Source of the DNA: Paracoccaceae bacterium
GTDB lineage: Bacteria > Pseudomonadota > Alphaproteobacteria > Rhodobacterales > Rhodobacteraceae
NCBI GenBank assembly: GCA_027351005.1
Contig: DAIEJF010000116.1
Location: 1 to 35,085 of the forward strand
DNA: 35,085 bases
Reading direction: 5' to 3'
The position numbers and the translations under genes are program-made. The notes under the pieces were generated by a model, which ran no database searches, had not been told where the DNA came from, and saw only the letters and a list, made by a program, of their open reading frames with translations. Shown piece by piece: positions 11,884 through 32,660 of the stretch (position 1 is the stretch's first letter; every line of letters starts with the position of its first letter).

Positions 11884-12056
11884 CAGGATCGGGAGAATCC
11901 GGCGGGGTGCAAACCCGGAGCCGGTGCCGAAGGAGCAACCGCCCCGGTAAACTCTCAGGCGCACGAACCGTTCTGACACAGAACTCTGGAGAGACCCCCG
12001 ACCCGATCGGGGGCGCCGAAGGGATAACGATCTCAGGCGGAAGGACAGAGGGGGCA
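11884..12056 (+). ncRNA. Tandem glycine riboswitch (two aptamers) upstream of gcvT
   Basis: Aptamer 1: gggagaa...gccgaaggagcaacc...aaactctcaggcgcacgaacc, with a stem capped by a gggt-gcaa-accc GNRA-type loop. Aptamer 2: ctctggagagaccc...gcgccgaagggataacgatctcaggcggaaggacagaggggg. Short linker, located directly before gcvT. Confidence 0.93.
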
Positions 12057-12127
12057 TCGGAGGCGCAGGGGCAACCCTGCCGGAACGATGCCGGGCTATG
12101 CAGCTACCGGCGAGAAGGGAGGGCGGC

Positions 12128-13255
12128 ATGGCCGACCTGAAGCGTCTGGGTCTGCATGACCTGCATCTGGCCCTGGGCGGCAAGATGGTGCCCTTTGCGG
12201 GCTATGAAATGCCCGTGCAATACCCGCTGGGCGTGATGAAGGAACACCTTCACACCCGCGCCGCGGCCGGGTTGTTCGATGTCAGCCACATGGGGCAGGT
12301 GATCGTCGCACCGAAGGACGGGCGGATCGAAACCGCTGCGCTGGCGCTGGAACGGCTGATCCCCGTCGACGTGCTGGGCCTTGCCCCCGGTCGGCAGCGC
12401 TATGGCTTCTTCACCGATGCCACGGGCGGCATTCTCGATGACCTGATGGTGACGAACCGGGGCGACCACCTCTATGTCGTCGTCAACGCCGCCTGCAAGG
12501 AGGCGGATCTGGCCCATATGCAGGCCGCAATGCCCGACTGCGATGTGGGCATGGTGGGCGGCCGCGCACTTCTGGCCCTTCAGGGGCCCGAGGCGGCCGC
12601 GGTCCTGTCGCGCCTGATCCCCGATGCGGGCGATTTCGCCTTCATGGACCACGGCATCCGGCCCTGGCAGGGGGTGGACCTGTGGATCTCGCGCTCGGGA
12701 TACACGGGCGAGGATGGCTACGAGATCTCGGTCCCCGATCTCGCGGCGCGGGCCTTCGCGGACCGTCTGCTGGCCGATCCGGCGGTGCAGCCCATCGGCC
12801 TTGGCGCGCGCGACTCGCTGCGGCTCGAGGCCGGGCTCTGCCTTTACGGACATGACATCGACACCACCACCTCGCCGGTCGAAGGCGCGCTGACCTGGGC
12901 GATGCAGAAGGCCCGCCGCACCGGCGGCGCCCGCGCGGGCGGCTTTCCGGGGGCCGAGCGCATCCTACGCGAACTGGCCGAAGGGGCCACCCGCAGCCGC
13001 GTGGGCCTGCGCCCCGAGGGCCGCGCGCCGATGCGCGAGGGCACCCTGCTGTTCGCCACCGTCGAGGGCGGCGACCCCGTCGGCCGGATCACCTCGGGCG
13101 GGTTCGGGCCCAGCCTCGATGCGCCGATCGCCATGGGCTATCTGCCCAGCCCGCTTTGCGTCCGGGGCACCACGGTATACGGTGACGTGCGGGGCAAACG
13201 GCTGCCCGCCACCGTGACCGCCCTGCCATTCCGGCCTGCCACCTACAAACGCTGA
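12128..13255 (+). CDS. gcvT: Glycine cleavage system aminomethyltransferase (T protein)
   Basis: MADLKRLGLHDLHLALGGKMVPFAGYEMPVQYPLGVMKEHLHTRAAAGLFDVSHMGQ; operon with gcvH and gcvP; riboswitch upstream. Confidence 0.96.
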   Translation: MADLKRLGLHDLHLALGGKMVPFAGYEMPVQYPLGVMKEHLHTRAAAGLFDVSHMGQVIVAPKDGRIETAALALERLIPVDVLGLAPGRQRYGFFTDATGGILDDLMVTNRGDHLYVVVNAACKEADLAHMQAAMPDCDVGMVGGRALLALQGPEAAAVLSRLIPDAGDFAFMDHGIRPWQGVDLWISRSGYTGEDGYEISVPDLAARAFADRLLADPAVQPIGLGARDSLRLEAGLCLYGHDIDTTTSPVEGALTWAMQKARRTGGARAGGFPGAERILRELAEGATRSRVGLRPEGRAPMREGTLLFATVEGGDPVGRITSGGFGPSLDAPIAMGYLPSPLCVRGTTVYGDVRGKRLPATVTALPFRPATYKR

Positions 13256-13267
13256 CGAGGACATCAG

Positions 13268-13627
13268 ATGAAATACACCCAAGAACACGAATGGCTGCGG
13301 GTCGATGGCGACCTGGTCGTGGTCGGCATCACCGCCTATGCGGCCGAACAGCTTGGCGATGTGGTGTTCGTGGAACTGCCCGAGATCGAAACCCAGGTCG
13401 CCCAGGGCGACGAGGTGGTCGTGATCGAAAGCGTCAAGGCGGCCTCCGACATCCTTGCCCCGGTCGAAGGCGAGATCGTCGAGGTCAACGCCAAGCTCTC
13501 CGACACCCCCGGCCTCGTGAACGAGGACCCGCTGGGCGACGGCTGGATGTTCAAGATGAAGGTCGATGACCTCGCCGCGCTCGACGAGTTCATGGACGAA
13601 GACGAATACAACGACATGATCGCGTGA
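13268..13627 (+). CDS. gcvH: Glycine cleavage system H protein
   Basis: [51 protein letters not shown] lipoyl-lysine motif. Confidence 0.97.
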
Positions 13628-13634
13628 GGCTGCG

Positions 13635-16475
13635 ATGACCTTTACCCCGACCGACTACAATCCCTACGATTTCGCCAATCGCCGCCATATCGGCCCGTCG
13701 CCCAGCGAGATGGCGGAGATGCTGCAGGCGGTCGGGGTGGCCTCGCTTGACGAGCTGATCGCCCAGACCGTCCCGGCGTCCATCCGCCAGAAGGGCTCGC
13801 TGGGCTGGGCGCCGCTGGCCGAACACGAACTGCTGGCCCGGATGCGCGAGGTCGCGGCCAAGAACCGGGTGATGACCAGTCTGATCGGGCAGGGCTACTA
13901 CGGCACCGTCACCCCGCCCGCGATCCAGCGCAACATCCTGGAAAACCCGGCCTGGTACACCGCCTACACCCCCTACCAGCCCGAAATCGCGCAGGGCAGG
14001 CTGGAGGCGCTGCTGAACTTCCAGACCATGGTGGCCGACCTGACCGGTCTGCCCGTGGCCAATGCCTCGCTGCTTGACGAGGCGACCGCCGCCGCCGAGG
14101 CGGTGACCATGGCGCATCGCGTGGCCAAGTCGAAGGCCACGGCCTTCTTCGTCGATCACGGCTGCCACCCGCAGACCATCGCCGTCATCCGCACCCGCGC
14201 CGAACCGCTGGGCATCGCGGTCGAGGTGGGCGCCCCCGAGACGATGGAGGCAGGCCGCTATTTCGGCGCCCTCTTCCAGTATCCGGGCACCTACGGCCAT
14301 GTGACCGACTTCACCCCCCAGATCGCCGCGCTGCATGCCGCCAAGGCGGTGGCCGTGGTGGCCACCGACCTGCTGGCGCTGTGCCTGCTGAAGGAACCCG
14401 GCGCGATGGGTGCCGACATCGCCATTGGCTCGGCCCAGCGGTTCGGCGTGCCGATGGGCTACGGCGGGCCGCATGCGGCGTTCATGTCCTGCAAGGACGA
14501 GTTCAAGCGGCAGATGCCGGGCCGGATCGTGGGCGTGTCGGTCGATGCGCGCGGCGGGCGGGCCTACCGGCTGTCGCTGCAGACCCGCGAACAGCATATC
14601 CGGCGGGAAAAGGCGACCTCGAACGTCTGCACCGCGCAGGCGCTTCTGGCGGTGATGGCCAGCTTCTACGCGGTGTTTCACGGGCCGCTTGGCCTGCGCG
14701 CGATCGCAGAGCGGGTGCATTTCCTGACCAACCGGCTGGCCCGGGCACTGAAGGCCGCGGGGGCGACGGTGTCGCCGAAGGCATTCTTCGATACGATCAC
14801 GGTCGAGGTGGGCGTGGGTCAGGCGGGCATCCTTGCCGCCGCCCGGCAAGAGGGGCTGAACTTCCGCAAGATCGGCACCGACCGGGTGGGGATCAGCCTG
14901 GACGAGACCTCGGACGAAAAGGTGCTGGTGCGGGTCCTGCGCGCCTTCGGCATCGACGGTGTTCCCCCGCATCGGGCCAAGCTTGGCTTTCCCGAAGACC
15001 TGCTGCGGACGTCGGACTATCTGAGCCACCCGGTGTTCCACATGAACCGGGCCGAATCCGAGATGATGCGCTACATGCGCCGCCTGTCGGACCGCGACCT
15101 TGCACTGGACAGGGCGATGATCCCGCTGGGGTCCTGCACCGTGAAGCTGAACGCCGCGGCCGAGATGATGCCGATCACCTGGCCCGAGTTCTGCGCACTG
15201 CACCCCTTCGCGCCGCGCGATCAGGCGCAGGGCTACGCCGAGGTCATCAACGACCTCTCGGCCAAGCTCTGCGAGATCACGGGCTATGACGCGTTCTCGT
15301 TGCAGCCGAATTCCGGCGCGCAGGGCGAATATGCGGGGCTGATGACGATCCGCGCCTATCACCGCGCCCGCGGCGAGGGGCACCGCAACATCTGCCTGAT
15401 CCCGGTCTCGGCCCATGGCACAAACCCGGCATCGGCCGCGATGGCGGGGATGGAGATCGTGGTGGTGAAAAGCCGCGAGAACGGCGACATCGACCTTGAC
15501 GACTTCCGCGCTAAGGCCGAGGCCGCGGGGGGCAATCTTGCCGCCTGCATGATCACCTACCCCTCGACCCACGGCGTGTTCGAGGAAACCGTGCGCGAGG
15601 TCTGCAAGATCACGCATGACCACGGCGGGCAGGTCTATATCGACGGCGCAAACATGAATGCGATGGTGGGTCTGGCCAAGCCGGGCGAGATCGGCAGCGA
15701 CGTGAGCCACCTGAACCTGCACAAGACCTTCGCCATCCCGCATGGCGGCGGGGGCCCCGGCATGGGGCCGATCGGGGTCAAGGCGCATCTGGCGCCCTAC
15801 CTGCCCTCGGACCCCGAAACGGGCGACACGGGCGCCGTTTCGGCGGCCCCCTACGGCTCGGCCTCGATCCTGCTGATCAGCTGGGCCTACTGCCTGATGA
15901 TGGGCGGGCCGGGCCTGACGCAGGCGACAAAGGTGGCGATCCTGAATGCCAACTACATCGCAGCCCGGCTGAAGGGCGCGTATGAGGTGCTGTTCATGGG
16001 CAGCGGCGGCCGGGTTGCGCATGAATGCATCCTCGATACCCGCCCCTTCGCCGACACCGCGCAGGTAACCGTGGACGACATCGCCAAGCGGCTGATCGAC
16101 AACGGCTTCCACGCGCCGACGATGAGCTGGCCGGTGGCCGGCACACTGATGGTGGAACCCACGGAAAGCGAGACCAAGGCCGAGCTTGACCGCTTCATCA
16201 CCGCGATGCTGGCGATCCGGGCGGAAATCGCCGCGATCGAGCGCGGCGACATGCAGGCCGAGAACAACCCGCTGAAGAACGCGCCCCATACGGTGGAAGA
16301 CCTGGTGGCAGAGTGGAACCGCCCCTACCCGCGCGAACAGGGCTGCTTCCCTCCCGCCAGCTTCCGGGTGGACAAGTACTGGCCGCCGGTGGGCCGGGTC
16401 GACAACGTCTATGGCGACCGCAACCTGATCTGCATCTGCCCGCCGGTTGAGGCCTACGCCGAAGCCGCCGAGTGA
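13635..16475 (+). CDS. gcvP: Glycine dehydrogenase (decarboxylating), single-chain P protein
   Basis: 946 aa; [19 protein letters not shown]..., [23 protein letters not shown]-lysine region. Confidence 0.97.
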
Positions 16476-17287
16476 TCGGGCCGCTGGCCGCCGATGGCCT
16501 CTGTCACCTCATCGGCGGCCGCGCGCACCTGCGCGCCGATCCGCACCGCATCCTCCAGCGAGATGCGGAAGGCCGGGCCTGACACCGACAGGCCCGCGAC
16601 GGCCTCGCCGAACCCGTTGAACACGGGGGCGGCCACACAGCGCATTCCGGGCGCCTTTTCCTGATCGTCCACCGCGTAGCCGCGTTCGCGCGTGCGGGCG
16701 AGGTCGCGCATCAGCGCCGCTTCGGACGTCAGCGAGAGGGGGGTGAAGCCTTGCAGCCCCTGCCGCGCGATCACCCCTTTCACCCGCGTCTCGGGCATCC
16801 AGGCCATCAGCGCCTTGCCGATCCCCGAGACATGCATGGGCGACAGCGTGCCAGGTGGAAAGAAGGCGCGGATCGCCTCGTGGGTTTCCACCTGCGCCAG
16901 GAACAGCACCTGATCCTGGCTTTCGACACCAAGGTTGGCGGTTTCCCCCGTCGCCCGCATCAGGGCCTGCATCGGCCCCCGCGCGCGCTCGGCCACCTTG
17001 GTGCGGCGCAGGAAGGCGGTGCCGATGCGAAACGTGCCCGCGCCCACATGCCAAAGCTGGCCCGGCTCCTCCATCTCGACCATGTCATGCCCCTGAAGGG
17101 TGGTCAGGACCCGGTAAACGGTGGCCGGCGCCTGCCCGCTTGTGGCGGCCAGTTCCGAAAGCGTGAGCCCCGGACGTTCGGACAAGAGCCGCAACAGGCC
17201 CATCGCCCGATCCAGCGATTGCACGGTGTTCTGTTCGGTCTTGTCGTTGAACGCCTTGGGGCGGCCACGCGGGCGGGGGTCCGGCAT
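16454..17287 (-). CDS. bhcR: IclR-family regulator, BhcR-like, divergent from bhcA
   Basis: [65 protein letters not shown] (IclR HTH) plus effector domain (GIGKALMAW). Start at 17287 has upstream gaggaaacgg RBS. Gene symbol rests on position next to bhcABCD. Confidence 0.85.
16486..16520. terminator. Hairpin downstream of the gcvP stop, embedded in the 3' end of bhcR (candidate terminator/processing structure)
   Basis: ggccgccgat - 15 nt - atcggcggcc, perfect 10-bp inverted repeat starting 11 bp after the gcvP stop; no U-tract. Confidence 0.4.
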
Positions 17288-17453
17288 CCGTTTCCTCAAA
17301 TATTGAAAAGCGATTTCGTTGGGTGAAAAACACAATATACCATTCAGACAAGGTGTTTAGTGGCATCATGCGATTTCTGAAAAAATATTTCGAAAAAATT
17401 GCGGCCGCGGCACATCGGCTCTAACCTGATCTTGTCAAGCGGGAGGAGACGCC
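17288..17453. promoter_or_regulatory. AT-rich divergent bhcR-bhcA control region with candidate operators and bhcA promoter
   Basis: TTGCGG (17399-17404) - 17 nt - TAACCT (17422-17427) upstream of bhcA; TTTCTGAAAAAATATTTCGAAAAAATT directly 5' of the -35; tcaaatattga near bhcR start; gcgatttc occurs twice. Confidence 0.5.
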
Positions 17454-18644
17454 ATGACCAGCCAGAACCCGGTTTTCATCCCCGGCCCCACCAACATCCC
17501 CGAGGTGATCCGCAAGGCCTGCGACATGGGCACGATCGACCACCGCTCGCCCGCCTTCGCGCGCATCTTCCGCCCCGCCGTCGACGGCGTGAAGGCCGTG
17601 CTGCGCACCACGGCAGGCGAGGTGATCCTGTTCCCCGCCACGGGCACCGGCGGCTGGGAGGCGGCGGTCAGCAACACCCTGTCGCCCGGCGACACGGTGC
17701 TGGCAGCACGCTTCGGCATGTTCAGCCACCGCTGGATCGACCTCTGCCAGCGCCAAGGCTTGACGGTTCAGGTGATCGAGACGCCCTGGGGCCAGGGCGC
17801 GCCGCTGGCGGCGATCGAAGCGGCGCTGAAGGCCGATACCGGCCACCGGATCAAGGCGGTCCTGGCCACCCACAACGAGACCGCCACCGGCGTGCGCTCC
17901 GACATCGCGGGCATCCGCCGGGCGATGGACGCGGCGGGGCATCCCGCGCTCTTGTTCGTCGACGGGGTGTCCTCGATCGGCTCGATGCCGTTCGAGATGG
18001 ATGGCTGGGGCGTGGACATTGCCGTGACCGGAAGCCAGAAGGGTTTCATGCTGCCTGCGGGGCTGGCCATCCTTGGCCTCAGCCCCAGGGCGCTGGCGGC
18101 GATGGAGACCGCGAAACTGCCGCGCACCTACTTCGATTTCGCCGACATGCGCCGCAGCTATGCCGCGGGCGGTTATCCCTATACCCCCGCCGTCGGGCTG
18201 CTGAACGGGCTGGCAACCAGCGTGCAGATGCTGCTGGACGAGGGGCTGGACACCGTTTTCGCTCGCCACCACCGCATCGCCGAGGGCATCCGCCGCGCCG
18301 TCTTCGCCTGGGGGATGCGGCCCTATGCGGCCTCGCCCGATCTTTACTCCGACACGGTGACCGCCGTGAGCGTGCCCGAGGGCTGCAACGGCACCGATCT
18401 GGTGAAACTGGCGGCCTCGAAATACGATGTGGCCTTTGGCGTGGGGCTGGGCGAGGTGGCGGGCAAGGTCTTCCGCATCGGCCATCTGGGCATGCTGACG
18501 GATGTGATGGCCCTGGCAGGTCTTGCCGCCGCCGAAATGTGCATGGCCGATCTCGGCTGGCCGGTCACGCTGGGATCGGGTGTGGCCGCCGCGCAGGACT
18601 ATTACCGCAACGCGAACACGGAGGCGGCACGCGCCGCGGCCTGA
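17454..18644 (+). CDS. bhcA: Aspartate--glyoxylate aminotransferase of the beta-hydroxyaspartate cycle
   Basis: Class V aminotransferase (serine-glyoxylate/alanine-glyoxylate type): NPVFIPGPTNIPEVIRKACDMGTIDHRSPAF, VFRIGHLGMLTDV, TGSQKGFMLPAGLA; first gene of bhcABCD set. Confidence 0.9.
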   Translation: MTSQNPVFIPGPTNIPEVIRKACDMGTIDHRSPAFARIFRPAVDGVKAVLRTTAGEVILFPATGTGGWEAAVSNTLSPGDTVLAARFGMFSHRWIDLCQRQGLTVQVIETPWGQGAPLAAIEAALKADTGHRIKAVLATHNETATGVRSDIAGIRRAMDAAGHPALLFVDGVSSIGSMPFEMDGWGVDIAVTGSQKGFMLPAGLAILGLSPRALAAMETAKLPRTYFDFADMRRSYAAGGYPYTPAVGLLNGLATSVQMLLDEGLDTVFARHHRIAEGIRRAVFAWGMRPYAASPDLYSDTVTAVSVPEGCNGTDLVKLAASKYDVAFGVGLGEVAGKVFRIGHLGMLTDVMALAGLAAAEMCMADLGWPVTLGSGVAAAQDYYRNANTEAARAAA

Positions 18645-18645
18645 G

Positions 18646-19611
18646 ATGAACGATATGGCTCCTCTCTACATCCCCACCTTCGGCGACGTGCTGGCCGCGC
18701 ATGAGCGGATCGCCCCCCATATCCACCGCACGCCGGTGCTGACCTCGCGCTACCTGAATGCGCTGACCGGGGCCGAGCTGTTCTTCAAGTGCGAGAACTT
18801 CCAGAAAGCGGGGGCCTTCAAGGCCCGCGGCGCATCGAACGCGGTCTTCGGGCTGACCGAGGCGCAGGCCGCGCGGGGCGTGGCGACCCACAGTTCGGGC
18901 AACCACGGGCTGTCGCTGTCCTATGCGGCGGGGCGGCGGGGCATTCCCTGCACCGTCGTGATGCCGCGCACCGCGCCGCAGGCCAAGAAGGACGCGGTGA
19001 AGGGCTATGGCGGCCGCGTGGTGGAATGCGACCCCTCGACCTCGAGCCGGGAGGCGGTCTTCGCCGAGGTGCTGAAGGAGACGGGTGCCGAATTCGTGCA
19101 CCCCTACAACGATCCCCGCGTGATCGCAGGCCAGGCCACCTGCTCGCGCGAGTTGCTGGAGCAGGTCGGGGAACTGGATGCCGTGGTCGCCCCGATCGGC
19201 GGCGGCGGCATGATCTCGGGCACCTGCCTGACGCTGTCGACGCTGGCGCCGGGGGTCGAGATCTACGCCGCCGAGCCGAAGAATGCCGATGACGCCGCGC
19301 GCAGCTTCCGCGCCGGGCACATCATCGCCGACGACGCCCCCGAGACGGTGGCCGACGGGCTGAAGGTGCCGCTGAAGGAACTGACGTGGCATTTCGTCAA
19401 GAGCTACGTCGAGGATATCCTGACCGCCGAGGAAGACGAGATCGTCGAGGCGATGAAACTGACCTGGAAGCGGATGAAGATCGTCATCGAACCGTCCTGC
19501 GCGGTGCCGCTGGCGACCATCCTGAAGAACCGCGACCGCTTCGCCGGCAAGCGCGTCGGCGTTGTCATCACCGGCGGGAACGTCGATCTGGACAAGCTGC
19601 CCTGGATGTAA
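18646..19611 (+). CDS. bhcB: Beta-hydroxyaspartate dehydratase (serine/threonine dehydratase family)
   Basis: PLYIPTFGDVLAAHERIAPHIHRTPVLTSRYLNALTGAELFFKCENFQKAGAFKARGASNAV; IGGGGMISG PLP phosphate-binding loop. Starts 1 bp after the bhcA stop. Confidence 0.9.
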   Translation: MNDMAPLYIPTFGDVLAAHERIAPHIHRTPVLTSRYLNALTGAELFFKCENFQKAGAFKARGASNAVFGLTEAQAARGVATHSSGNHGLSLSYAAGRRGIPCTVVMPRTAPQAKKDAVKGYGGRVVECDPSTSSREAVFAEVLKETGAEFVHPYNDPRVIAGQATCSRELLEQVGELDAVVAPIGGGGMISGTCLTLSTLAPGVEIYAAEPKNADDAARSFRAGHIIADDAPETVADGLKVPLKELTWHFVKSYVEDILTAEEDEIVEAMKLTWKRMKIVIEPSCAVPLATILKNRDRFAGKRVGVVITGGNVDLDKLPWM

Positions 19612-19621
19612 GGAGGGGACC

Positions 19622-20776
19622 ATGAACGCGATTACCTTCAACGGCCTGGAAGTGGGCTACGACATTCCGGCCGCCCCCGGCATGGCCGAGGCCGAGGTGC
19701 AGACGCCCTGCCTGATCGTCGATCTCGACGCGCTGGACCGCAACATCGCCAAGATGCAGGGGCTGGCCAACCAGATGGGCGTGCGGCTGCGCGTGCACGG
19801 CAAGATGCACAAGTCGGCCGACATCGCGCTGATGCAGCTCGCGGCGGGGGCCTGCGGCATCTGCTGCCAGAAGGTCTCGGAAGCCGAGGCCTTTGCCCGC
19901 GCCGGGGTCAAGGACGTGCTGGTGTCGAACCAGGTCCGCGACCCGGCCAAGATCGACCGGCTGGCCCGCCTGCCCCGCCTGGCGCGCACCATCGTCTGCG
20001 TGGACGATCCGACCAATGTGGCCGATCTGTCGGCGGCCGCCCAGCGCCACGGCACCACGCTGGAATGCCTGGTCGAGATCGACTGCGGCGCGGGGCGCTG
20101 CGGGGTGAATTCGACGGCGGCCGTTGTGGCCCTCGCCAAGGCCATTGCCGCGGCGCCGGGGCTGACGTTCAGCGGCATCCAGGCCTATCAGGGTGCGATG
20201 CAGCACATGCAGGACTGGGCCGACCGCAAGGCCAAGATCGACATCGCCGTGGCGATGGTGAAGGACGCGGTGACCGCGCTGGCCGCCGAGGGGCTGGGCT
20301 GCGCCATCGTCGGCGGTGGCGGGACCGGCAGCTACGGGTTCGAAGGCAGCTCGGGCGTCTACAACGAACTGCAATGCGGCAGCTACGCCTTCATGGATGC
20401 CGATTACGGGCGCATCCATGACAAGGACGGCAAGCGGATCGACGAGACGGAATTCGAGCACGCGCTGTTCCTCTTCACCCAGGTGATGAGCCACACCAAG
20501 GCCGACCGCGCGGTCTGCGACGCCGGGCTGAAGGCGCAATCGGTCGACAGCGGGCTGCCGGTGGTGTTCGGGCGGACGGATGTGAAATACATCAAGTGCT
20601 CGGACGAACATGGGGTGATCGAAGACCCCGCAGGGGTGCTGAAGCCCGGCGACAAGCTGCGCCTGGTGCCGGGCCACTGCGACCCCACCTGCAACGTGCA
20701 CGACTGGTATGTGGGCGTCCGGGCGGGCCGGGTGGAACGCCTGATCCCGGTGACCGCGCGGGGGATGGGGCTCTAG
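19622..20776 (+). CDS. bhcC: Beta-hydroxyaspartate (3-hydroxy-D-aspartate) aldolase, DSD1/alanine racemase-like fold
   Basis: VQTPCLIVDLDALDRNIAKMQGLANQMGVRLRVHGKMHKSADIALMQL; C-terminal HCDPTCNVHDWYVG. Confidence 0.9.
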   Translation: MNAITFNGLEVGYDIPAAPGMAEAEVQTPCLIVDLDALDRNIAKMQGLANQMGVRLRVHGKMHKSADIALMQLAAGACGICCQKVSEAEAFARAGVKDVLVSNQVRDPAKIDRLARLPRLARTIVCVDDPTNVADLSAAAQRHGTTLECLVEIDCGAGRCGVNSTAAVVALAKAIAAAPGLTFSGIQAYQGAMQHMQDWADRKAKIDIAVAMVKDAVTALAAEGLGCAIVGGGGTGSYGFEGSSGVYNELQCGSYAFMDADYGRIHDKDGKRIDETEFEHALFLFTQVMSHTKADRAVCDAGLKAQSVDSGLPVVFGRTDVKYIKCSDEHGVIEDPAGVLKPGDKLRLVPGHCDPTCNVHDWYVGVRAGRVERLIPVTARGMGL

Positions 20777-20798
20777 CGCGCCGCGGGGGCGGGCCGGG

Positions 20799-20845: not shown

Positions 20846-20860
20846 GAGGGGAGCGGCGCG

Positions 20861-22894: not shown

Positions 22895-22961
22895 GCGGAA
22901 GGGCGGATCGGGAGCATTCCGACCCGCCCCGGCGTTCGCCCCGGCGTTCGGGGGCGCGGCC

Positions 22962-24440
22962 TCAGGCCTCGGCCACCTCGGCCGCCGCGCGCGCATCATC
23001 AAGCGAGCCTCGCGCACCGTTGAAGAAGGCATTCAGCCCGACCGCCGAGACCGCGGCCATCAGGATGCCGGATTCCACCAGCGGGTGGATCGCGGCGGGC
23101 ATCCACTGGTCGAAGTTCGGCGCGATCATCGGGATCATGCCGAAGCCCAGGGAGACCGCCACGATGAACAGGTTGTGGCGGTTGTGGTGAAAATCCACCC
23201 GGGCCAGGATGCGGATGCCGGTGGCGGCGACCATCCCGAACATCACGAGCCCCGCCCCGCCCAGCACCGAGCTGGGCAGCGAGGCGACCAGCGCCCCCAT
23301 CTTGGGGATCACCCCCAGTACCAGCATTATCGCCCCGGCGGTCACGGTGACGAAGCGCGAGCGCACCCCCGTGACCCCTACCAGCCCCACGTTCTGCGAG
23401 AACGAGGTATAGGGGAAGGTGTTGAAGAGCCCGCCGATCAGCGTGCCAAGCCCGTCGGCCCGGAGCCCGGCGGCCAGCCGCGGCTGGCCGACCTGTGCGT
23501 CGGTCATGTCGGCCAGTGCCAGGAACATGCCGGTCGACTCGATCATGGTGATCAGCATCACCAGAACCATCGTCAGGATCGGCACAAGCTGGAACACCGG
23601 CGCGCCGAAGTGGAAGGGGATGACCGGTGCAAACCAGGGCGCCGAGCCGACCAGCGCGAAGCCCATCTTGCCCGCCAGCGTGGCAAGGATCGCCCCCACC
23701 ACGATGCCCATCAGCACGGCGATATTGGCAAGAAACCCGCGCGCGTGGCGGGCAAAGAGCATCACCACGACCAGCACCACCGCCGAGATCGCAAGGTTTG
23801 TGCCATCGGCATAGGCCGGGTTCGGCACCGAGGGCGCAAGCGTCAGCCCTGCCGGAACGGGTGGCACCCCGCCCTGCCCCGCAAGGGCCCCCACCTGTTT
23901 CAGCCAGTCGGCCTGGGCAGGGTCGACGAGCTTCGGCGCCGTCGGGCCGAAGGGCTGGCCGAAGATCCACCAGATGCCGATCTGCATCAGGGTGATGCCG
24001 ATCACCGTGATGACCGTTCCGGTGACGACCGAGGGGAAGAACCGCAGCAGCCGGCTGGCCATCGGGGCGATCAGCATCCCGATCACCCCCGCGGCCATGA
24101 TCGAGCCGAAGATGATCCGCGCACCATCCGCGCCGGGGTGCGGTATGGCGATGGCGATCATCGGCCCCACGGAGGCGAAGGTGACCCCCATCATCACCGG
24201 CAGACGGATGCCGAACCAGCGGCCGAGCCCGAAAGACTGGATCATCGACACGATCCCGCAGGCGAAGAGGTCAGCCGAGATCAGATAGGCCACATCGGCC
24301 TGCGACAGCTTCAGTGCGCCGCCGATGATGTAGGGCACGGCAATGGCCCCCGCATACATCACCAGCACATGTTGCAGACCAAGGGCGAGGAGCTTGCCCG
24401 GCGGCAGCACCTCATCGACGGGATGGGGTTTGATGGTCAT
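22962..24440 (-). CDS. NCS2-family uracil-xanthine/urate permease
   Basis: MTIKPHPVDEVLPPGKLLALGLQHVLVMYAGAIAVPYIIGGALKLSQADVAYLISADLFACGIVSMIQSFG; multiple hydrophobic segments; adjacent to ureide genes. Confidence 0.9.
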   Translation of the reverse strand: MTIKPHPVDEVLPPGKLLALGLQHVLVMYAGAIAVPYIIGGALKLSQADVAYLISADLFACGIVSMIQSFGLGRWFGIRLPVMMGVTFASVGPMIAIAIPHPGADGARIIFGSIMAAGVIGMLIAPMASRLLRFFPSVVTGTVITVIGITLMQIGIWWIFGQPFGPTAPKLVDPAQADWLKQVGALAGQGGVPPVPAGLTLAPSVPNPAYADGTNLAISAVVLVVVMLFARHARGFLANIAVLMGIVVGAILATLAGKMGFALVGSAPWFAPVIPFHFGAPVFQLVPILTMVLVMLITMIESTGMFLALADMTDAQVGQPRLAAGLRADGLGTLIGGLFNTFPYTSFSQNVGLVGVTGVRSRFVTVTAGAIMLVLGVIPKMGALVASLPSSVLGGAGLVMFGMVAATGIRILARVDFHHNRHNLFIVAVSLGFGMIPMIAPNFDQWMPAAIHPLVESGILMAAVSAVGLNAFFNGARGSLDDARAAAEVAEA

Positions 24441-24521
24441 GTCTCTTCCCTAAGGTTTCGTGAAGGCAGGCCTTATGGTTCGGCGCCCGCGCCGTTGGCC
24501 CTGCGGTGCGGGGCATGGGGT

Positions 24522-25010
24522 TCAGGCCGTGACCGTCCAGGGTTCGGTGAACCAGTGTTCCTCGAGGTTCGGCGTGGGGCCGATGCGATCGACCACGGCG
24601 AAGAGCCCGGGGGCATGCAGCGGGGTCAGCACGCCGTGCCAGGTATTGCGGTGCAGGTTGATGCCCTGACCGGGGGCGGTGAGGAAGGCGCGGGGGCGGC
24701 CCGGCGTGCCCGCCTCGTCCGGCGCCACGATGACAAGGAACGGGTGTTCCGTCATCGGCAGGAAGGCCTGGCTGCCCTCGGGGTGGCGTTCGACAAGATC
24801 GAGCCGGTAGGGCAGCGCGCGCGGTTCGGCTTTGAAAACACTGATCCCGGCCCGCCCGCCGGGGCCGAAATCCAGCCGCGCACGGTCGTGCCAGCGGCCG
24901 CAAAGGCCCTGGTTGATGAGCCTGTCATGCGGCCCGGCGGCCTCCAGCACGTCGCCGAAGGGGGCGAAGGCGGCGGCGGTCAACGGTTCGAGGTGGAGCG
25001 TGCGGGTCAT
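24522..25010 (-). CDS. allA: Ureidoglycolate lyase
   Basis: MTRTLHLEPLTAAAFAPFGDVLEAAGPHDRLINQGLCGRWHDRARLDF; GINLHRNTWHGVLTPL. Confidence 0.92.
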   Translation of the reverse strand: MTRTLHLEPLTAAAFAPFGDVLEAAGPHDRLINQGLCGRWHDRARLDFGPGGRAGISVFKAEPRALPYRLDLVERHPEGSQAFLPMTEHPFLVIVAPDEAGTPGRPRAFLTAPGQGINLHRNTWHGVLTPLHAPGLFAVVDRIGPTPNLEEHWFTEPWTVTA

Positions 25011-25019
25011 CTGGCGCAA

Positions 25020-25067
25020 CCGGGGGCGCTGCCCCCGGACCCCCGGGATATTTGCGGACCGAAAATG
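25020..25067 (+). repeat. Dispersed intergenic hairpin repeat, copy C, between allE-like gene and allA
   Basis: ccgggggcgctgcccccgg hairpin then acccccgggatatttgcggaccgaaaat. Confidence 0.8.
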
Positions 25068-25080
25068 AGGAGCGCGGCGA

Positions 25081-25923
25081 TCATTTGAGCGGCCCGAAGG
25101 CGCCGGGCCCCCGCAGGCGGGCGTGGCGGTTCACGTCCTTGTAGAGCAGATAGCGGAACCGGCCCGGCCCGGCGGCATAGCAGGCCTGCGGGCAATAGGC
25201 GCGCAGCCACATGAAATCGCCGGCCTCGACTTCGACCCAGTCCTGGTTCAGCTTGTAGACCGCCTTGCCCTCGAGAACGTAGAGCCCGTGTTCCATCACA
25301 TGGGTTTCCTCGAACGGGATCACCCCGCCCGGCTGGAAGGTAACCACGTTCACATGCATGTCGTGGCGCAGGTCGCCGGGGTCGACGAAACGGGTGGTGG
25401 CCCAGCGCCCTTCCGTGTCGGGCATGGCGATCGGCGCCACCTCGGCATCCGAGGTCACGAATGCCTCGGGCATCGGCACGCCCGCAGCCGGTTCGTAGAG
25501 CTTGCGCACCCAGTGGAAGCGGGCGACATGGGGGCCCCCGTTCTTCAGCCTCCAGTCGCAGCCCGGCGGGATATAGGCATAGCCCCCCGCCGACAGTTCG
25601 TATTCCTGCCCGTCGAGCGAGAGCCAGATCTCGCCCTCGGTCACGAACAGGACCGATTGCGCGCCGGGTTCGTTGTCGGGCGTGTCCGAGCCGCCGCCGG
25701 GGCCGACCTCCATCACATATTGGCTGAAGGTTTCGGAAAAGCCCGACATCGGACGGGCGATCAGCCAGAGCCGGGTGTGGCTCCAGCCCGGCAGGGCGCT
25801 GGTCACGATATCGGAAAAGACGCCCTTCGGGATAAAGGCATAGGCCTCGGTGAACACGGCGCGGCCGGTCATCAGGCTGGTCTGGGGCGGCAGGCCGCCC
25901 TTGGGGGCGTAATATTGGCTCAC
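25081..25923 (-). CDS. allE: (S)-ureidoglycine aminohydrolase-like bicupin
   Basis: [47 protein letters not shown]; two cupin halves; [45 protein letters not shown]. Confidence 0.9.
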
Positions 25924-27332
25924 AGCATCTCTCTCAGGCGGAGTTCGGCGATACGTTCGACCTGCGCGCAGGCCGTGGCGAATTCGGTGGCCCGGTCATT
26001 GGCCAGGCGGCGGCGGAAGGCGTCGAGGATCGTGGCCTTGGTGTTGTCGCGCACCGCGATGATGAAGGGGAAGCCGAACTTTGCCACATAGTCGGCATTG
26101 AGCTGCTGGAACGCGGCGCGTTCGGCATCGGTCAGCGCGTCGAGCCCGGCGCTGGCCTGTTCGGCCGTGCTGGCCTCGGTCAGCCGCCTGGCCTGGGCCA
26201 GCTTGCCCGCAAGGTCGGGGTGCGCGGTCAGCACGCCCAGCCGTTCGGCCTCGGTGGCCGTGCGGAACATCCGTGCCAGCGCCGAATGGACACCCACTGC
26301 GGTGTCATGCGCGGGCCCCAGTTCCAGCGCCCAGGCGCGCTCTGCGATCCAGGGCGAATGTTCGAAGACCCCGCCGAAACGTTCGACGAAGCGCGCCTTC
26401 GTCATCCGGCTCGGGCGCTCGAACCGCTTGGGCGGATGGGTGGCGGCCCAGTGGCGGGCCACGTCGATCCGGCGGGGGAACCACACGCCTTCATGTGCCT
26501 GCGCGTAATCGAGGAAGCGTTTCAGCCCCGCGATCTTGCCCGGCCGACCGATCAGACGGCAGTGCAGGCCGACAGACATCATCTTGGCCGCGCCCGCCTG
26601 CCCTTCGGCATAGAGCGTGTCGAAGGCGTCCTTGAGGTACTGGAAGAACTGCTGCCCCTCGATGTAGCCCGGCGCGGTGGCAAAGCGCATGTCGTTGGCT
26701 TCGAGCGTGTAGGGGATGATGAGCTGGTCGCGGTCCCCGACCTCGAGCCAGTAGGGCAGGTCGTCATCATAGGTGTCGGAGATATAGGCAAAGCCGCCCT
26801 CCTCGGCCACGAGGCGGACGGTATTGGCCGAGCAGCGCCCCGTGTACCAGCCCTGCGGGCGTTCGCCCACGACTTCGGTATGCAGCCGGATCGCCTCGGC
26901 GATGGCGGCGCGTTCGACCTCTTCGGGCATGTCTCTGTGCTCGACCCATTTCAGGCCGTGGCTGGCGATTTCCCAGCCCGCAGCCTTCATCGCGGCCACC
27001 TGTTCGGGGCTGCGGGCCAGCGCGGTGGCCACGCCGTAGATCGTGACCGGGATGCCCATGCCGGTGAACAGCCGGTGCAGCCGCCAGAACCCGGCACGGG
27101 CGCCGTATTCGTAGATCGATTCCATGTTCCAGTGCCGCATGCCCGGCCACATCGCGGCGCCCGCGATGTCGGACAGGAACGCCTCGGAGGCCGCATCGCC
27201 GTGCAGGACGCAGTTCTCGCCGCCCTCCTCGTAGTTCAGCACCAGTTGCACCGCGACCTTGGCGCCACCGGGCCAGCGGGCATCCGGCGCATTCGGGCCA
27301 TAGCCCTGCATGTTGCGGGGGTAGCGGGTCAT
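25920..27332 (-). CDS. puuE-uraD: Fusion of PuuE-type allantoinase (polysaccharide deacetylase fold) and UraD-type OHCU decarboxylase
   Basis: N-terminal [40 protein letters not shown] (PuuE); C-terminal [16 protein letters not shown]...[14 protein letters not shown]...[25 protein letters not shown] (UraD). Overlaps allE start by 4 bp. Confidence 0.92.
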
Positions 27333-27485
27333 CGGGGCCTCCTCCTTCGCTCTCATTCTCTTGTAGGGCAGAGAATTGGATCAGGTTTTCAAATTTTTCC
27401 TGAAAGACCTGTTCCGGCGATCTCCTGTCGCCTTGTGCCACCGATTTTGGCAGGGTGGCGCGAAAGCAGGACGAGGGAGCCCCCG

Positions 27486-27842
27486 ATGAGCGGATTTCTG
27501 ACCACCCATGTGCTCGACACCGCGCGCGGCCTGCCCGCGGCGGGGCTGCGGATCGACCTTTACCGGCTGGAGGGCGAGGCCCGCGTTCATCTGCATTCCA
27601 CGGTGACGAACCACGACGGACGGACGGATGCCCCGATCCTGCCCGCCGGACAGTTCGCGACCGGGGTTTACGAGCTGGTGTTCCACGCGGGCGCCTATCT
27701 CGATGCCACCGGCACCCCGCCCGAAGCGCCGCGGTTCCTGAACGTGATCCCGATCCGCTTCGGCATTTCCGACGCCGCCAGCCACTACCATGTGCCGCTG
27801 CTGCTGTCGCCGTTCGGCTATTCGACCTATCGGGGCAGTTAA
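27486..27842 (+). CDS. uraH: Hydroxyisourate hydrolase (transthyretin-like)
   Basis: [30 protein letters not shown] ... [19 protein letters not shown] signature C-terminus. Confidence 0.96.
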
Positions 27843-28765
27843 GCCGCCTCGATCGGGCGCTCGCCGGTCACCGCGGCCTTGCAGCGGGCGACCATGAAAT
27901 CGAGGAACAGGCGGATCTTGGGGTCCTTCAGCCGCCTGTGTTGGGTCAGACAGGACAATTGAACCGGCAGCGGCGGGCTGGCTTGGGCCACCGGGACCAG
28001 CCGCCCCTCGCGCAGGTGGTCGGCCACCTCGAAGGCGGGTTTCAGCACGATGCCGCGGCCATCCAGCGCCCAGGCGGTCAGCACGTCACCATCATCCGAT
28101 TCGAAGGGCCCCGAAATCTCGAACCGCCGCGGCCCATCGGGGGTCATCAGGGTCCACTGAAATTCCTTGGCCCCCGGAAAGCGCAGGTTCAGGCAATCGT
28201 GCCGATCGCGCACCAGCGCCTCGCCATCCAGCGGCATGCCGCGCCGGGCCACATAGGCGGGCGAGGCACACAGAAGCCGCGGGCAATCGGCGATCACCCG
28301 CACCTTCAGCGTGCTGTCATCCAGAATGCCAAGGTGGAAGGCCACGTCCAGCCCCTCGGCTGTCACGTCGATCGAGCGATCCGACAGGCGCAGACGGACA
28401 TCGATCAGTGGATAGGCATCCTTGAAGGCGGGCACCTGCGGCGCGATCAGTCGGCGGCCGATGCCCAGGGGCGCCGCCACGAAGATGGTGCCGCGGGGGT
28501 TCTGCGTGGCGTCGATCACCGCGGCCTCGGCCTCGTCGATCGCCTCGAGCACCTTGCGCGCCCCGTCATAGAAAAGGCGACCGTTCTCGGTGGGTTGCAG
28601 TGACCGGGTGGTACGGTTGAACAGCCGCACGCCCAGATGCTTTTCCAGTTCCGATACCCGTGCCGAGGCGACGGCGGGCGAGGTGCGCTGATCGCGCGCC
28701 GCCGCACTCATGCTGCCCAATTCGTAGACACGCACGAACATCTTGATGTTGTTGACGTAGGACAC
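27839..28765 (-). CDS. LysR-family transcriptional regulator
   Basis: [65 protein letters not shown] plus substrate-binding domain. Confidence 0.93.
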
Positions 28766-28801
28766 CGCGATTTTCCGGCCACGATTGAAAGTGCTCTGTC
28801 A

Positions 28802-28838
28802 TTTGCAGAATTAACAAAAAGGTGGCCGCGGGTATAGC
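28802..28838. promoter_or_regulatory. Candidate LysR box and puuD promoter
   Basis: TTTG-CAGAATTAA-CAAA (28802-28818, T-N11-A type) overlapping TTAACA - 16 nt - TATAGC, in the divergent lysR-puuD gap. Confidence 0.4.
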
Positions 28839-28866
28839 GTCTCGGTGTCAGCACGGAGGACCGAGG

Positions 28867-30105
28867 ATGTACGACTGGGCGGTGATCGCCGAATGGCTGC
28901 AGTTTGCAGCACGCTGGACGCATGTGATCACGGCCATCGCCTGGATCGGATCGTCGTTCTACTTCATCGCGCTGGATCTGGGCCTGCACCGCGACCGCAA
29001 CCTGGAAAGCGGTGCCGATGGCGAGGAATGGCAGGTGCACGGCGGGGGCTTCTACCACATCCAGAAATATCTGGTGGCCCCGGAAAAGATGCCGGGCGAC
29101 CTGATCTGGTTCAAATGGGAAAGCTACGCCACATGGCTGTCCGGCTTCACCATGATGATTCTGGTCTACTATTTCGGGGCGCATTTCTTCCTGATCGACC
29201 CCGCGGTGATGCCGCTGAAGGTCTGGCAGGCGATCGCGATCTCGGTGGGTTCGCTGGCGCTGGGCTGGCTGCTCTATGACCGGATCTGCAAGAGCCGCTT
29301 CGGCGATGACAACACGCGACTGATGATCGGGCTTTACATCATCCTGGTGGCGATGGCCTGGGGCTATACCCATGTCTTTTCGGGGCGCGCGGCGCTGCTG
29401 CATCTGGGCGCCTTCACCGCCACGATCATGTCGGCCAACGTGTTCTTCATCATCATCCCGAACCAGAAGATCGTCGTGGCAGACCTGATCGCGGGCCGCA
29501 CGCCAGACCCGAAATACGGCAAGATCGCCAAGCAGCGCAGCACCCACAACAACTACCTGACGCTGCCGGTGCTGTTCCTGATGCTGTCGAACCACTACCC
29601 GCTTGCGTTCGCCACGAAATACAACTGGGTCATCGCCAGCCTCGTGTTCCTGATGGGCGTCACGATCCGGCACTACTTCAACACGCGCCATTCGCGCAAA
29701 GGCAACCCGACCTGGACCTGGCTGGTCACCGCGCTGATCTTCCTGCTGATCGCCTGGCTCTCGACCGCGCCGATGTTCGCTGCGAACCAGCAGACCGGCG
29801 ACATCACCCCCTCGCCCGCCGACGCGCGCTTCGCCCAGGCGGCGGGGTTCGAGGATGTGGTGCAGATCGTGCAGGGTCGCTGTTCCATGTGCCACGCGCA
29901 GGACCCCTCGTACGAAGGGATCCTGTGGTCGCCGAAGGGCGTGCGGCTGGAAACCCCGAACGAGATCGCACATGAGGCCGAACGCATCTACATTCAGGCG
30001 GGGGTGACCCATGCGATGCCGCCCGTCAACCTGAGCTTCATCGAGCCGGAAGAGCGTGCCAAGATCGTGGCCTGGTATCGGGCCGCGACGCGCGGGAACA
30101 GCTGA
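28867..30105 (+). CDS. puuD: Membrane urate hydroxylase PuuD with C-terminal cytochrome c domain
   Basis: MYDWAVIAEWLQFAARWTHVITAIAWIGSSFYFIALDLGL; multiple TM segments; C-terminal QGRCSMCHAQ (CxxCH). Confidence 0.93.
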   Translation: MYDWAVIAEWLQFAARWTHVITAIAWIGSSFYFIALDLGLHRDRNLESGADGEEWQVHGGGFYHIQKYLVAPEKMPGDLIWFKWESYATWLSGFTMMILVYYFGAHFFLIDPAVMPLKVWQAIAISVGSLALGWLLYDRICKSRFGDDNTRLMIGLYIILVAMAWGYTHVFSGRAALLHLGAFTATIMSANVFFIIIPNQKIVVADLIAGRTPDPKYGKIAKQRSTHNNYLTLPVLFLMLSNHYPLAFATKYNWVIASLVFLMGVTIRHYFNTRHSRKGNPTWTWLVTALIFLLIAWLSTAPMFAANQQTGDITPSPADARFAQAAGFEDVVQIVQGRCSMCHAQDPSYEGILWSPKGVRLETPNEIAHEAERIYIQAGVTHAMPPVNLSFIEPEERAKIVAWYRAATRGNS

Positions 30106-30208
30106 GGCATCCGACGCGCAACAAAATTGCGCTGCGGATGCACAAGACATCTCGCTTATGCCGCATCGCCATGCTACCTCCGCCCCGAATGGACAGGAGG
30201 ACAGGACG

Positions 30209-31057
30209 ATGGACGCGCGCGAACGGCCCTGGCGGTCGGTGCTCTATATCCCCGCATCGAAGGAACGTGCGCTGGACAAGGCCCGGGCGCTGCCGGTGGA
30301 CGCGATCATCTTCGACCTGGAAGACGCCGTGGCCGTGGACGAAAAGGCCGCCGCCCGACAGACACTGGCCGCCGCGCTTGCCGAGGGCGGCTTTGGACGG
30401 CGCGCGAAGATCGTCCGCATCAACGGCTTCGATACGCCCTGGGGGCGCGATGACGCCGCGGCCGTTGCGCACATGGCGGCCGATGCCGTTCTGATCCCCA
30501 AGGTGTCGTCTGCCGCGGATGTCGAGGCCGTGGCGCAGGTCGTGCCCGGCCTGCCGCTCTGGGCAATGATGGAAACCCCGCGCGGCGTGCTGAACGCCGC
30601 CGAGATCGCCGCGCATCCGCGGATGCAGGGCTTCGTGCTGGGCACCAACGACCTGGCGAAAGACCTGGGCAGCCGCTTCCGCCCCGACCGCCTGCCGATG
30701 CTGGCGGGGCTGGGCCTGTGCCTGCTGGCCGCGCGGGCGGCGGGGCTTGTCTGCATCGACGGCGTCTACAACGCCTTCAAGGATGACGCGGGCCTGGCCG
30801 CCGAATGCGCGCAGGGACGCGACATGGGGTTTGACGGCAAGACGCTGATCCACCCCGCCCAGATCGAGATCGCCAACGCCGCCTTCGCCCCCACCGAGGC
30901 CGAAGTCGACCTTGCGCGCCGCCAGATCGCCGCCTTCGCGGCCGCCGAGGCCGAGGGGCGCGGGGTCGCCGTTGTGGATGGACGGATCGTGGAAAACCTC
31001 CATATCGTCACAGCGCGGCAGACGCTGGCCAGAATGGCCGCGATCGCCGCCCTGTAA
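30209..31057 (+). CDS. mcl2: CitE-like CoA ester lyase/thioesterase, likely (3S)-malyl-CoA thioesterase
   Basis: MDARERPWRSVLYIPASKERALDKARALPVDAIIFDLEDAVAVDEKAAARQ (CitE/Mcl fold); 282 aa; next to mch-like gene. Confidence 0.8.
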   Translation: MDARERPWRSVLYIPASKERALDKARALPVDAIIFDLEDAVAVDEKAAARQTLAAALAEGGFGRRAKIVRINGFDTPWGRDDAAAVAHMAADAVLIPKVSSAADVEAVAQVVPGLPLWAMMETPRGVLNAAEIAAHPRMQGFVLGTNDLAKDLGSRFRPDRLPMLAGLGLCLLAARAAGLVCIDGVYNAFKDDAGLAAECAQGRDMGFDGKTLIHPAQIEIANAAFAPTEAEVDLARRQIAAFAAAEAEGRGVAVVDGRIVENLHIVTARQTLARMAAIAAL

Positions 31058-31067
31058 GGAGCGAACG

Positions 31068-31622
31068 ATGACACTTCTGATCCTTGGCGTGGTGCTCTGG
31101 TATGCCTCGCATCTGTTCAAGCGGCTGGCGCCGGGGCCGCGGGCCACGATGGGGAATGCGGGCAGGGGCGTGATGACGGTGCTGTCGCTGGCGGGGCTGG
31201 TGCTGATGGTGATCGGCTATCGCGCGGTCCCCAACATGCCCAACCTGATTCCCCTGCCCGGCAACGGCCACCTGAACAACACGCTGATGCTGATCGCGGT
31301 GGTCGTGTTCGGCGCGGGCATGTCGAAAGGCTGGCTCTGGACGAAGATCCGCCATCCGATGCTGTGGGGCACGCTGTTGTGGGCGCTGGCCCACCTGTCG
31401 GTGCGCAATGATGCCGCCTCGATCGTGCTGTTCGGCGGCATGGGGCTTTGGGCCATCCTGTCGATGGCGCTCATCAACCGTGCGGGCCCCTGGGCGCGCC
31501 CGGCCTCGGGCGGGATCAAGCGGGATGGCGTGTTGGTGGTGATCGCGCTGGTCATGTACGGGCTGATTACCGGCATCCACATGATGTTCGGCTACAATCC
31601 CTTCATGGGAAATTATGTCTAG
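31068..31622 (+). CDS. NnrU family membrane protein
   Basis: MTLLILGVVLWYASHLFKRLAPGPRATMGNAGRGVMTVLSLAGLVLMVIGYR; IRHPMLWGTLLWALAHL; several TM segments. Confidence 0.85.
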   Translation: MTLLILGVVLWYASHLFKRLAPGPRATMGNAGRGVMTVLSLAGLVLMVIGYRAVPNMPNLIPLPGNGHLNNTLMLIAVVVFGAGMSKGWLWTKIRHPMLWGTLLWALAHLSVRNDAASIVLFGGMGLWAILSMALINRAGPWARPASGGIKRDGVLVVIALVMYGLITGIHMMFGYNPFMGNYV

Positions 31623-31631
31623 GGAACCGGC

Positions 31632-32660
31632 ATGAAGACCAACGCGGGCCGCTTCTTCGAGGATTACCGGCTGGGCGAGGTGATCGCCCACGCTGTTCCG
31701 CGCACCGTATCGGGGGGCGAGCGCGCGCTTTACCACGCGCTCTATCCGGCACGCGGGGCGCTGTATTCCTCGGATGAATTCGCCCGCGCCTGTGGCCTGC
31801 CCGCGGCGCCGGTGGATGACCTGGTGGCGTTCCACCTGGTCTTCGGCAAGACGGTGCCCGACATCAGCCTGAACGCGGTGGCGAACCTCGGCTATGCCGA
31901 GGGGCGCTGGCTGCGCCCGGTCTGGCCGGGCGACACGCTGCGGGCGACATCCGAGGTGATCGGGCTGAAGGAAACCTCCAGCGGCACATCGGGCGTGGTC
32001 TGGGTGCGCACCACAGGGCTGAACCAGCACGACGTGCCGGTGCTGGACTATGTGCGCTGGGTGATGGTGAAGAAGCGTGGCACCGGCCCCGCGCCAGAGG
32101 CCTGCGTGCCGACGCTGGCCAAGGCCGTGGACCCCGCGGCGCTGGTGATCCCCGAGGGGCTGCATTTCGACGGTTACGATTTCAGCCTTGCCGGCGAACC
32201 CCACCGCTGGGGCGATTATGCCCCGGGCGAAAGGATCGACCATGTGGACGGCGTGACGGTGGAAGAGGCCGAGCACATGTTGGCCACGCGGCTCTGGCAG
32301 AACACGGCAAAGGTGCATTTCGATGCCACCCAGCGCCAGGATGGGCGGCGGTTGATCTACGGCGGCCATGTCATCAGCCTGGCGCGCACGCTGAGCTTCA
32401 ACGGGCTGGCCAATGCGCAGATGATCGTGGCCTTGAACGGCGGCACCCACGCCAACCCCTGCTTTGCCGGTGACACGGTGCGGGCCTGGTCCGAGGTGCT
32501 GGACAAGGCGGAAACCGCGGTGCCCAGCGTGGGGGCGATCCGGCTGCGGCTGGTGGCGGTGAAACAGGGCGCAGAACCCTTTGCGAGAACCGACGAAACC
32601 GGCAAATACCGGCCCGAGGTGCTGCTGGATCTGGACTACTGGGCCTTGATGCCGCGCTGA
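31632..32660 (+). CDS. mch: Mesaconyl-CoA hydratase (MaoC/hot-dog fold)
   Basis: 342 aa, MKTNAGRFFEDYRLGEVIAHAVPRTVSGGERALYHALYPARGALYSSDEFARACGLPAAPVDDLVAFHLVFGKTVPDIS. Confidence 0.87.
   Translation: MKTNAGRFFEDYRLGEVIAHAVPRTVSGGERALYHALYPARGALYSSDEFARACGLPAAPVDDLVAFHLVFGKTVPDISLNAVANLGYAEGRWLRPVWPGDTLRATSEVIGLKETSSGTSGVVWVRTTGLNQHDVPVLDYVRWVMVKKRGTGPAPEACVPTLAKAVDPAALVIPEGLHFDGYDFSLAGEPHRWGDYAPGERIDHVDGVTVEEAEHMLATRLWQNTAKVHFDATQRQDGRRLIYGGHVISLARTLSFNGLANAQMIVALNGGTHANPCFAGDTVRAWSEVLDKAETAVPSVGAIRLRLVAVKQGAEPFARTDETGKYRPEVLLDLDYWALMPR

Follow-up and report, generated by a model that had tools for sequence, protein, structure and literature searches.

The beta-hydroxyaspartate cycle (BHC) converts two molecules of glyoxylate into one of oxaloacetate and, in doing so, needs neither the glycine cleavage system (GCV) nor Mcl2: BhcA converts glyoxylate and aspartate to glycine, BhcC joins glycine to glyoxylate, BhcB dehydrates the product to iminosuccinate, and BhcD reduces iminosuccinate to aspartate. 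Glyoxylate, together with urea or ammonia, is also where uric acid and ureide clusters typically end, and AllA releases it, along with urea, from ureidoglycolate. Here, we describe a stretch of DNA in which these two systems meet. It is the whole of contig DAIEJF010000116.1 (35,085 nucleotides; “the window” below) of a Paracoccaceae bacterium (assembly GCA_027351005.1), whose genome is in 326 contigs, is 91% complete, and has its relatives, among the genomes compared, in the Rhodobacteraceae/Paracoccaceae. In this window, the genes of the BHC (bhcRABCD) adjoin those for the breakdown of urate, and a comparison with related genomes makes it quite probable that purine-derived glyoxylate is assimilated to C4 compounds by the BHC, in place of glyoxylate carboligase (Gcl), in a conserved gene neighbourhood.

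Closest Described Systems

The BHC has so far been studied as a route for algal glycolate. In Paracoccus denitrificans, the bhc cluster was studied for growth on glycolate and glyoxylate, with purines mentioned merely as a possible source of glyoxylate; it is for this species only that a requirement for the BHC in growth on these two substrates has been shown, BhcR being a glyoxylate-responsive activator that is required for growth on glyoxylate (PMC11323563). Strains deleted for bhc and for bhcR, and a promoter reporter, exist in this species (PMC11323563). The window has the same divergent bhcR-bhcABCD order as P. denitrificans, and all five of its Bhc proteins pass the equivalog models. In P. 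denitrificans, bhcD is followed directly by genes for a xanthine permease and an 8-oxoguanine deaminase and by uraH and puuD; in the window, by contrast, the ureide genes are convergent rather than co-directional with bhc, and they include allA, allE, and puuE.

Other described clusters likewise tie glyoxylate assimilation to allantoin breakdown but do so via Gcl. One is the all/gcl regulon of E. coli, a species in which AllR is, like BhcR, a glyoxylate-responsive regulator of the IclR type. Another is PA1498-PA1502 of P. aeruginosa, an allantoin-inducible cluster that contains Gcl (PMC12694930). The window is not a member of this class: its enzymes are those of the BHC, no CO2 is lost, and the product is oxaloacetate. 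With the uric acid and ureide clusters of the puuD-uraH-puuE-uraD-allE-allA type, the window shares the full set of genes, an NCS2 permease, and a LysR regulator; it differs from them in having a glyoxylate-using cycle built in.

The individual modules are already known; their joining, conserved across genomes, and its operon-like arrangement in Paracoccus appear to be new. This holds within the limits of the literature: there is no report of the BHC coupled with ureides in the open literature searched, which did not include the 2019 paper defining the cycle, so that an earlier mention is possible.

A Complete Gene Set from Urate to Oxaloacetate

Gene identities are based on NCBIfam equivalog cut-offs, Pfam, Rfam, and matches to solved structures, and scores are given as bits/cut-off. 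The window comprises four blocks: a glycine riboswitch with gcvTHP; bhcR-bhcABCD with a GAPDH-like gene (gapL); the urate-to-glyoxylate set with a permease; and mcl2-nnrU-mch-sdhC. In the second of these, the genes for BhcA to BhcD, which all score over their equivalog cut-offs, form one operon-like run on the + strand: bhcA, encoding the aspartate-glyoxylate aminotransferase (17454-18644; NF045640, 730.3/650); bhcB, the beta-hydroxyaspartate dehydratase (18670-19611; NF045641, 610.4/550); bhcC, the 3-hydroxy-D-aspartate aldolase (19622-20776; NF045642, 695.6/690); and bhcD, the iminosuccinate reductase (20861-21826, in a reading frame open from 20831; NF045643, 565/500). The gene for the IclR-type regulator, bhcR, is divergent from bhcA (- strand, 16454-17287, in a frame open to 17335; NF045644, 405.9/350).

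In the third block, four genes on the - strand lie tail to tail with bhcABCD-gapL. These encode an NCS2 permease of the xanthine type (22962-24440; TIGR03173, 489/414), the ureidoglycolate lyase AllA (24522-25010; PF04115, E 4.6e-60; structure 2bdr, 126.6 bits), the (S)-ureidoglycine aminohydrolase AllE (25081-25923; NF008373, 527/445), and a PuuE-UraD fusion of allantoinase and OHCU decarboxylase (25920-27332; TIGR03212, 533/425; TIGR03164, 209/96). Since this ureide operon converges on the bhc operon, the two do not form a single transcript in the window. Further along are uraH, for the 5-hydroxyisourate hydrolase (+ strand, 27486-27842; TIGR02962, 129.1/87.5), a gene for a LysR-type regulator of the ureide block (- strand, 27839-28765; LysR models), whose position between uraH and puuD is repeated in many loci, and puuD, for the membrane urate hydroxylase (+ strand, 28867-30105, in a frame open from 28822; PF06181, E 4.6e-137). 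AllE also passes NF040771, the model for a bifunctional allantoicase/(S)-ureidoglycine aminohydrolase (490/350), and may thus be bifunctional; with this score, the allantoate step is closed and the path from urate to glyoxylate is complete within the window. XdhB, which acts in the conversion of xanthine to urate, is encoded elsewhere in the same genome (1240/849). The original prediction had listed the genes of the window and their order, and every gene that it named was recovered by the NCBIfam, Pfam, Rfam, or structure matches; the corrections are that puuE and uraD are fused into a single gene and that uraH is on the + strand.

The conserved core, from about 16.5 to 30.1 kb, would then be a purine-to-C4 gene neighbourhood. 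PuuD, UraH, UraD, PuuE, AllE, and AllA would convert urate, by way of allantoin and then ureidoglycolate, into glyoxylate and urea, and BhcA to BhcD would convert two of these glyoxylates into one oxaloacetate with no loss of CO2, with glycine and aspartate being recycled inside the cycle. BhcR would sense the purine-derived glyoxylate, and purines would thereby be a carbon source as well as a nitrogen source. In Rhodobacteraceae, the BHC would replace the Gcl route for purine-derived glyoxylate, taking the part that Gcl plays beside the allantoin genes of enterobacteria and pseudomonads; no Gcl scored over the curated cut-off in any of 150 genomes, that of the window included, and the E. coli control was positive. 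From the gene content and its conservation, we infer a flux from purines to oxaloacetate through the BHC, an induction by purines, and a benefit for growth.

The bhc-Ureide Link across Genomes

A single fixed sample of 150 near-complete genomes from the order, which all belong to the window's family, Rhodobacteraceae, was used to score linkage. This sample was searched with BhcD, PuuE-UraD, GapL, GcvP, and Mch, and a pair was taken as linked when the two were no more than 15 kb apart; the number expected by chance was calculated simply as a ratio of lengths (30 kb in 4.1 Mb), which ignores kinship. A synteny test of this kind, for bhc within 15 kb of ureide genes, had been proposed beforehand, and its result was strongly positive: BhcD and PuuE are linked in 38 of the 81 genomes with bhc, and in 25 of the 45 genera with bhc, as against about 0.6 genomes expected by chance. 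The link is, therefore, real, widespread, and beyond chance. Nor is it local, because it occurs in 25 genera and its label changes 12 to 15 times on a quick BhcB-C-D tree; the objection, raised with the original prediction, that co-location might be restricted to one shallow clade is refuted by these genera and by the presence of the link in Stappiaceae, Afifella, and Methylobacterium (in the last of these with different purine genes).

Two further sets were based on chosen loci. In a set of 80 BhcD loci, which come from named genomes and were selected for their similarity to the BhcD of the window, purine or ureide genes lie within about 10 kb in 24, including loci of Stappiaceae and Afifella outside the family, and GapL is present in 23; of the loci with full flanks, 19 of 49 have purine or ureide genes. 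A larger, partly chosen set of 109 bhc loci was compared by local tblastn with E. coli GlcDEF, and glycolate oxidase genes were beside bhc in only 3, versus 37 with purine or ureide genes. Often, bhcR-bhcABCD lies amid the ureide genes and separates allE from permease-allA-puuE-uraH-LysR-puuD. Several genomes that lack bhc have the same ureide set, in which allE and gapL are close neighbours with no bhc separating them.

Two loci in genomes in which no BhcD scored over the threshold may be mentioned here. In one (L122, 6227-7207; genome G094), a BhcR homologue (65%) is beside allA-allE-puuE. In the other (L105, 5834-8240; genome G001), the space between allE and gapL is occupied by a lone BhcC-like aldolase (663 bits, cut-off 690), after which comes a probable malic enzyme.

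Plasmid Islands and the Operon-like Order in Paracoccus

The fullest purine-bhc islands are carried by annotated plasmids of Ruegeria, Alloyangia, and Pseudosulfitobacter. The plasmid of Ruegeria THAF33 has allE-bhcRABCD-permease-allA-puuE-uraH-LysR-puuD-LysR-xdhABC, that of Alloyangia has xdhABC-permease-guaD-allE-bhcRABCD-permease-allA-puuE-LysR-puuD, and that of Pseudosulfitobacter has xdhC-permease-guaD-allE-bhcRABCD. In Methylobacterium, which belongs to another order, bhcD is beside genes for an 8-oxoguanine deaminase, an NCS2 permease, and a molybdenum hydroxylase.

The most telling arrangement is the operon-like one of Paracoccus. In P. pantotrophus, bhcABCD is followed after 36 bp by a xanthine permease gene (TIGR03173, 513/414), which overlaps that for an 8-oxoguanine deaminase (698/532); about 17 bp further on is uraH (124/87), which is followed by a terminator-like hairpin and by puuD. 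The order is the same in P. denitrificans HAMBI_2443.

A different arrangement is a cassette that lacks bhcA and that consists of genes for a DAO-family FAD oxidoreductase and a small ORF, followed by bhcB, bhcC, bhcD, a LysR gene, and an ABC transporter of the Glu/Asp type. It is 99.8-99.9% identical across Chelativorans, Pseudotabrizicola, and one Rhizobiales genome (L074, 2220-18613; L015, 5396-15962; L014, 1312-18549), with IS6 and an integrase nearby. Phaeobacter, Roseovarius, and Yoonia have small plasmids that carry related clusters, with the order FAD oxidoreductase-RidA-bhcB-bhcC. In the cassette, the oxidase could take the place of BhcA by making glyoxylate, perhaps from glycine. Genes for EDTA or NTA breakdown were looked for beside bhc in Chelativorans and were not found; the cassette there is a different one.

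BhcR and Its Predicted Operator

A predicted operator palindrome, TGAAAAANNTTTTCA, was derived from 76 bhcR-bhcA promoters, in which it is situated some 60 bp ahead of bhcA. Strong matches are concentrated at bhcR/bhcA (121 of 140). The window contains only two such sites: TGAAAAGCGATTTCG, near the start of bhcR (17304-17318; score 15.6), and TGAAAAAATATTTCG, ahead of bhcA (17378-17392; score 24.1). A predicted operator-like site is, in this sense, conserved between the divergent bhcR and bhcA.

Coupling or Common History?

Several observations weigh against a functional coupling of the BHC to ureide breakdown. PuuE is present in 147 of the 150 genomes and BhcD in 81; since PuuE is far commoner, many genomes degrade ureides without the BHC and must have another sink for glyoxylate. 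In 43 of the 81 genomes with bhc, there is no link within 15 kb, although the contig ends of drafts hide some. In the usual layout, the two groups of genes converge and the ureide genes have a LysR regulator of their own, and a BhcR-like palindrome is present at only 1 of 53 ureide promoters. It is only in Paracoccus that gene order suggests a co-regulation of bhc and purine genes. Finally, the linkage label forms clusters on the BhcB-C-D tree, with none of 500 shuffles giving a value as low, even if the label still changes about 15 times, with 12 of these changes being forced. Much of the shared architecture may, therefore, be due to common descent or to block transfer.

A rival explanation is that the linkage is historical and has no function: an ancestral island would have joined bhc and the ureide genes once, and the two would since have remained or travelled together, with bhc serving glycolate and the ureide genes serving nitrogen only. 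The near-constant convergent orientation and gene order are what such a history would leave, as are the frequent location on plasmids and the clustering of the label, and it is for growth on glycolate that the role of the BHC has been proven (PMC11323563). A single joining is, however, difficult to reconcile with a tree that forces 12 or more changes of the label and with the recurrence of different solutions, namely bhc within the ureide set, the permease-deaminase-uraH order of Paracoccus, and the 8-oxoguanine deaminase of Methylobacterium. Moreover, the unlinked bhc loci have no other conserved flank (no third neighbour recurs among them), and bhc is far more rarely beside glycolate oxidase than beside purine genes. 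A purely historical linkage is, in our judgement, unlikely, and the assimilation of purine-derived glyoxylate by the BHC is the reading that we prefer. Because the palindrome is nearly confined to bhcR/bhcA and is absent from ureide promoters, the coupling outside Paracoccus is probably metabolic, with the breakdown of ureides making the inducer.

GapL

The gene after bhcD in the window (+ strand, 21899-22894) encodes GapL, a dehydrogenase of the GAPDH family that belongs to a distinct subfamily and scores below the cut-off for GAPDH-I (324/367). It travels with both modules: GapL is linked to PuuE in 27 of 92 genomes, versus 0.7 by chance, and to BhcD in 12 of 60, versus 0.4. It is not specific to bhc: 8 of the genomes that have it beside PuuE lack bhc, and in 11 more, bhc is located elsewhere. 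The catalytic residues Cys150 and His177 and the phosphate-binding Arg232 are kept in all 46 sequences, in which Gly210 of the phosphate site is invariably replaced by Ser. GapL was compared with an ordinary GAPDH and with an erythrose-4-phosphate dehydrogenase; it reaches neither curated cut-off, and the residues are ambiguous. It may be a gluconeogenic isoform or an enzyme for a different aldehyde substrate.

Neighbours outside the Conserved Unit

The outer blocks of the window are local neighbours of the conserved unit. To the left is a tandem glycine riboswitch (+ strand, 11880-12050; Rfam RF00504, 55.9 and 39 bits) ahead of the gcvT-gcvH-gcvP operon for glycine cleavage (+ strand, 12098-16475; NCBIfam cut-offs passed). 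To the right, also on the + strand, are genes for an Mcl2-like HpcH/HpaI lyase (30158-31057, in a frame open from 30056; best match malyl-CoA lyase 4l9y, 131 bits), for an NnrU-like membrane protein (30912-31622; PF07298), and for the mesaconyl-CoA/beta-methylmalyl-CoA hydratase Mch (31632-32660; beta-methylmalyl-CoA dehydratase structure 8hgn, 424 bits), with sdhC coming next.

The original prediction had joined all these genes into a C2 hub, an idea that holds for bhc with the ureide genes (38 of 81 genomes) but not for the GCV (1 of 73) or for mcl2/mch (1 of 81 and 1 of 141). In its full form, this idea is that the GCV, BHC, ureide, and ethylmalonyl-CoA genes constitute one C2/glycine module that was selected as a unit in the lineage. 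All the blocks do adjoin in the window, the GCV also adjoins in two near relatives, L004 and L024, and it is near bhc in the scattered cases of L069, L153, and Limimaricola; to this can be added the proximity of gcvP to PuuE, described below. Against it, the window is alone within the sample in having GcvP linked to BhcD (1 of 73 genomes) and in having Mch linked to BhcD (1 of 81) or to PuuE (1 of 141), mcl2-nnrU-mch-sdhC is a self-standing unit in all 10 of the other genomes looked at, and gcvTHP is without bhc in ten other gcv regions. Furthermore, the BHC is balanced without the GCV or Mcl2, and crotonyl-CoA carboxylase/reductase (Ccr) is below its cut-off in the window genome (best 68/379), which is 91% complete. 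A module selected as a whole is, for these reasons, very improbable; gcvTHP and mcl2-nnrU-mch-sdh are each an ordinary unit, and they abut by accident in this genome. The proposal of an ethylmalonyl-CoA mutase at the left edge was not confirmed: the contig begins inside this gene, and the part that is present has matches to general models of methylmalonyl-CoA mutase only.

GcvP is linked to PuuE in 8 of 135 genomes, versus about 1.0 expected, with three of the eight in one genus. This proximity (L124 and L132; genomes G015, G019, G114, G042, G072, G111, and G127) is weak but recurrent and does not depend on bhc. The left part of the window also holds a purine nucleoside phosphorylase of the DeoD type (1861-2565), whose homologue in genome G099 is some 6 kb away from the ureide/GapL cluster (L093, about 17400).

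Purines as a Probable Source of Carbon

Dissolved purines are exuded and shared among ocean microbes (PMC11698098). If purine and ureide genes are the most conserved neighbours of bhc, these purines would feed central carbon metabolism through the BHC, and their degradation would be a form of carbon assimilation, rather than merely the scavenging of nitrogen, in which the step from glyoxylate to C4 entails no loss of CO2. On balance, we lean, by a small measure, towards a broader proposal for Rhodobacteraceae and some of their relatives: that purine-derived glyoxylate, and not only algal glycolate, would be a main natural substrate of the BHC, and that purines would be a carbon source assimilated to C4 compounds without CO2 loss via a xanthine-to-oxaloacetate island that is both inherited and plasmid-borne, with GapL as an accessory enzyme.

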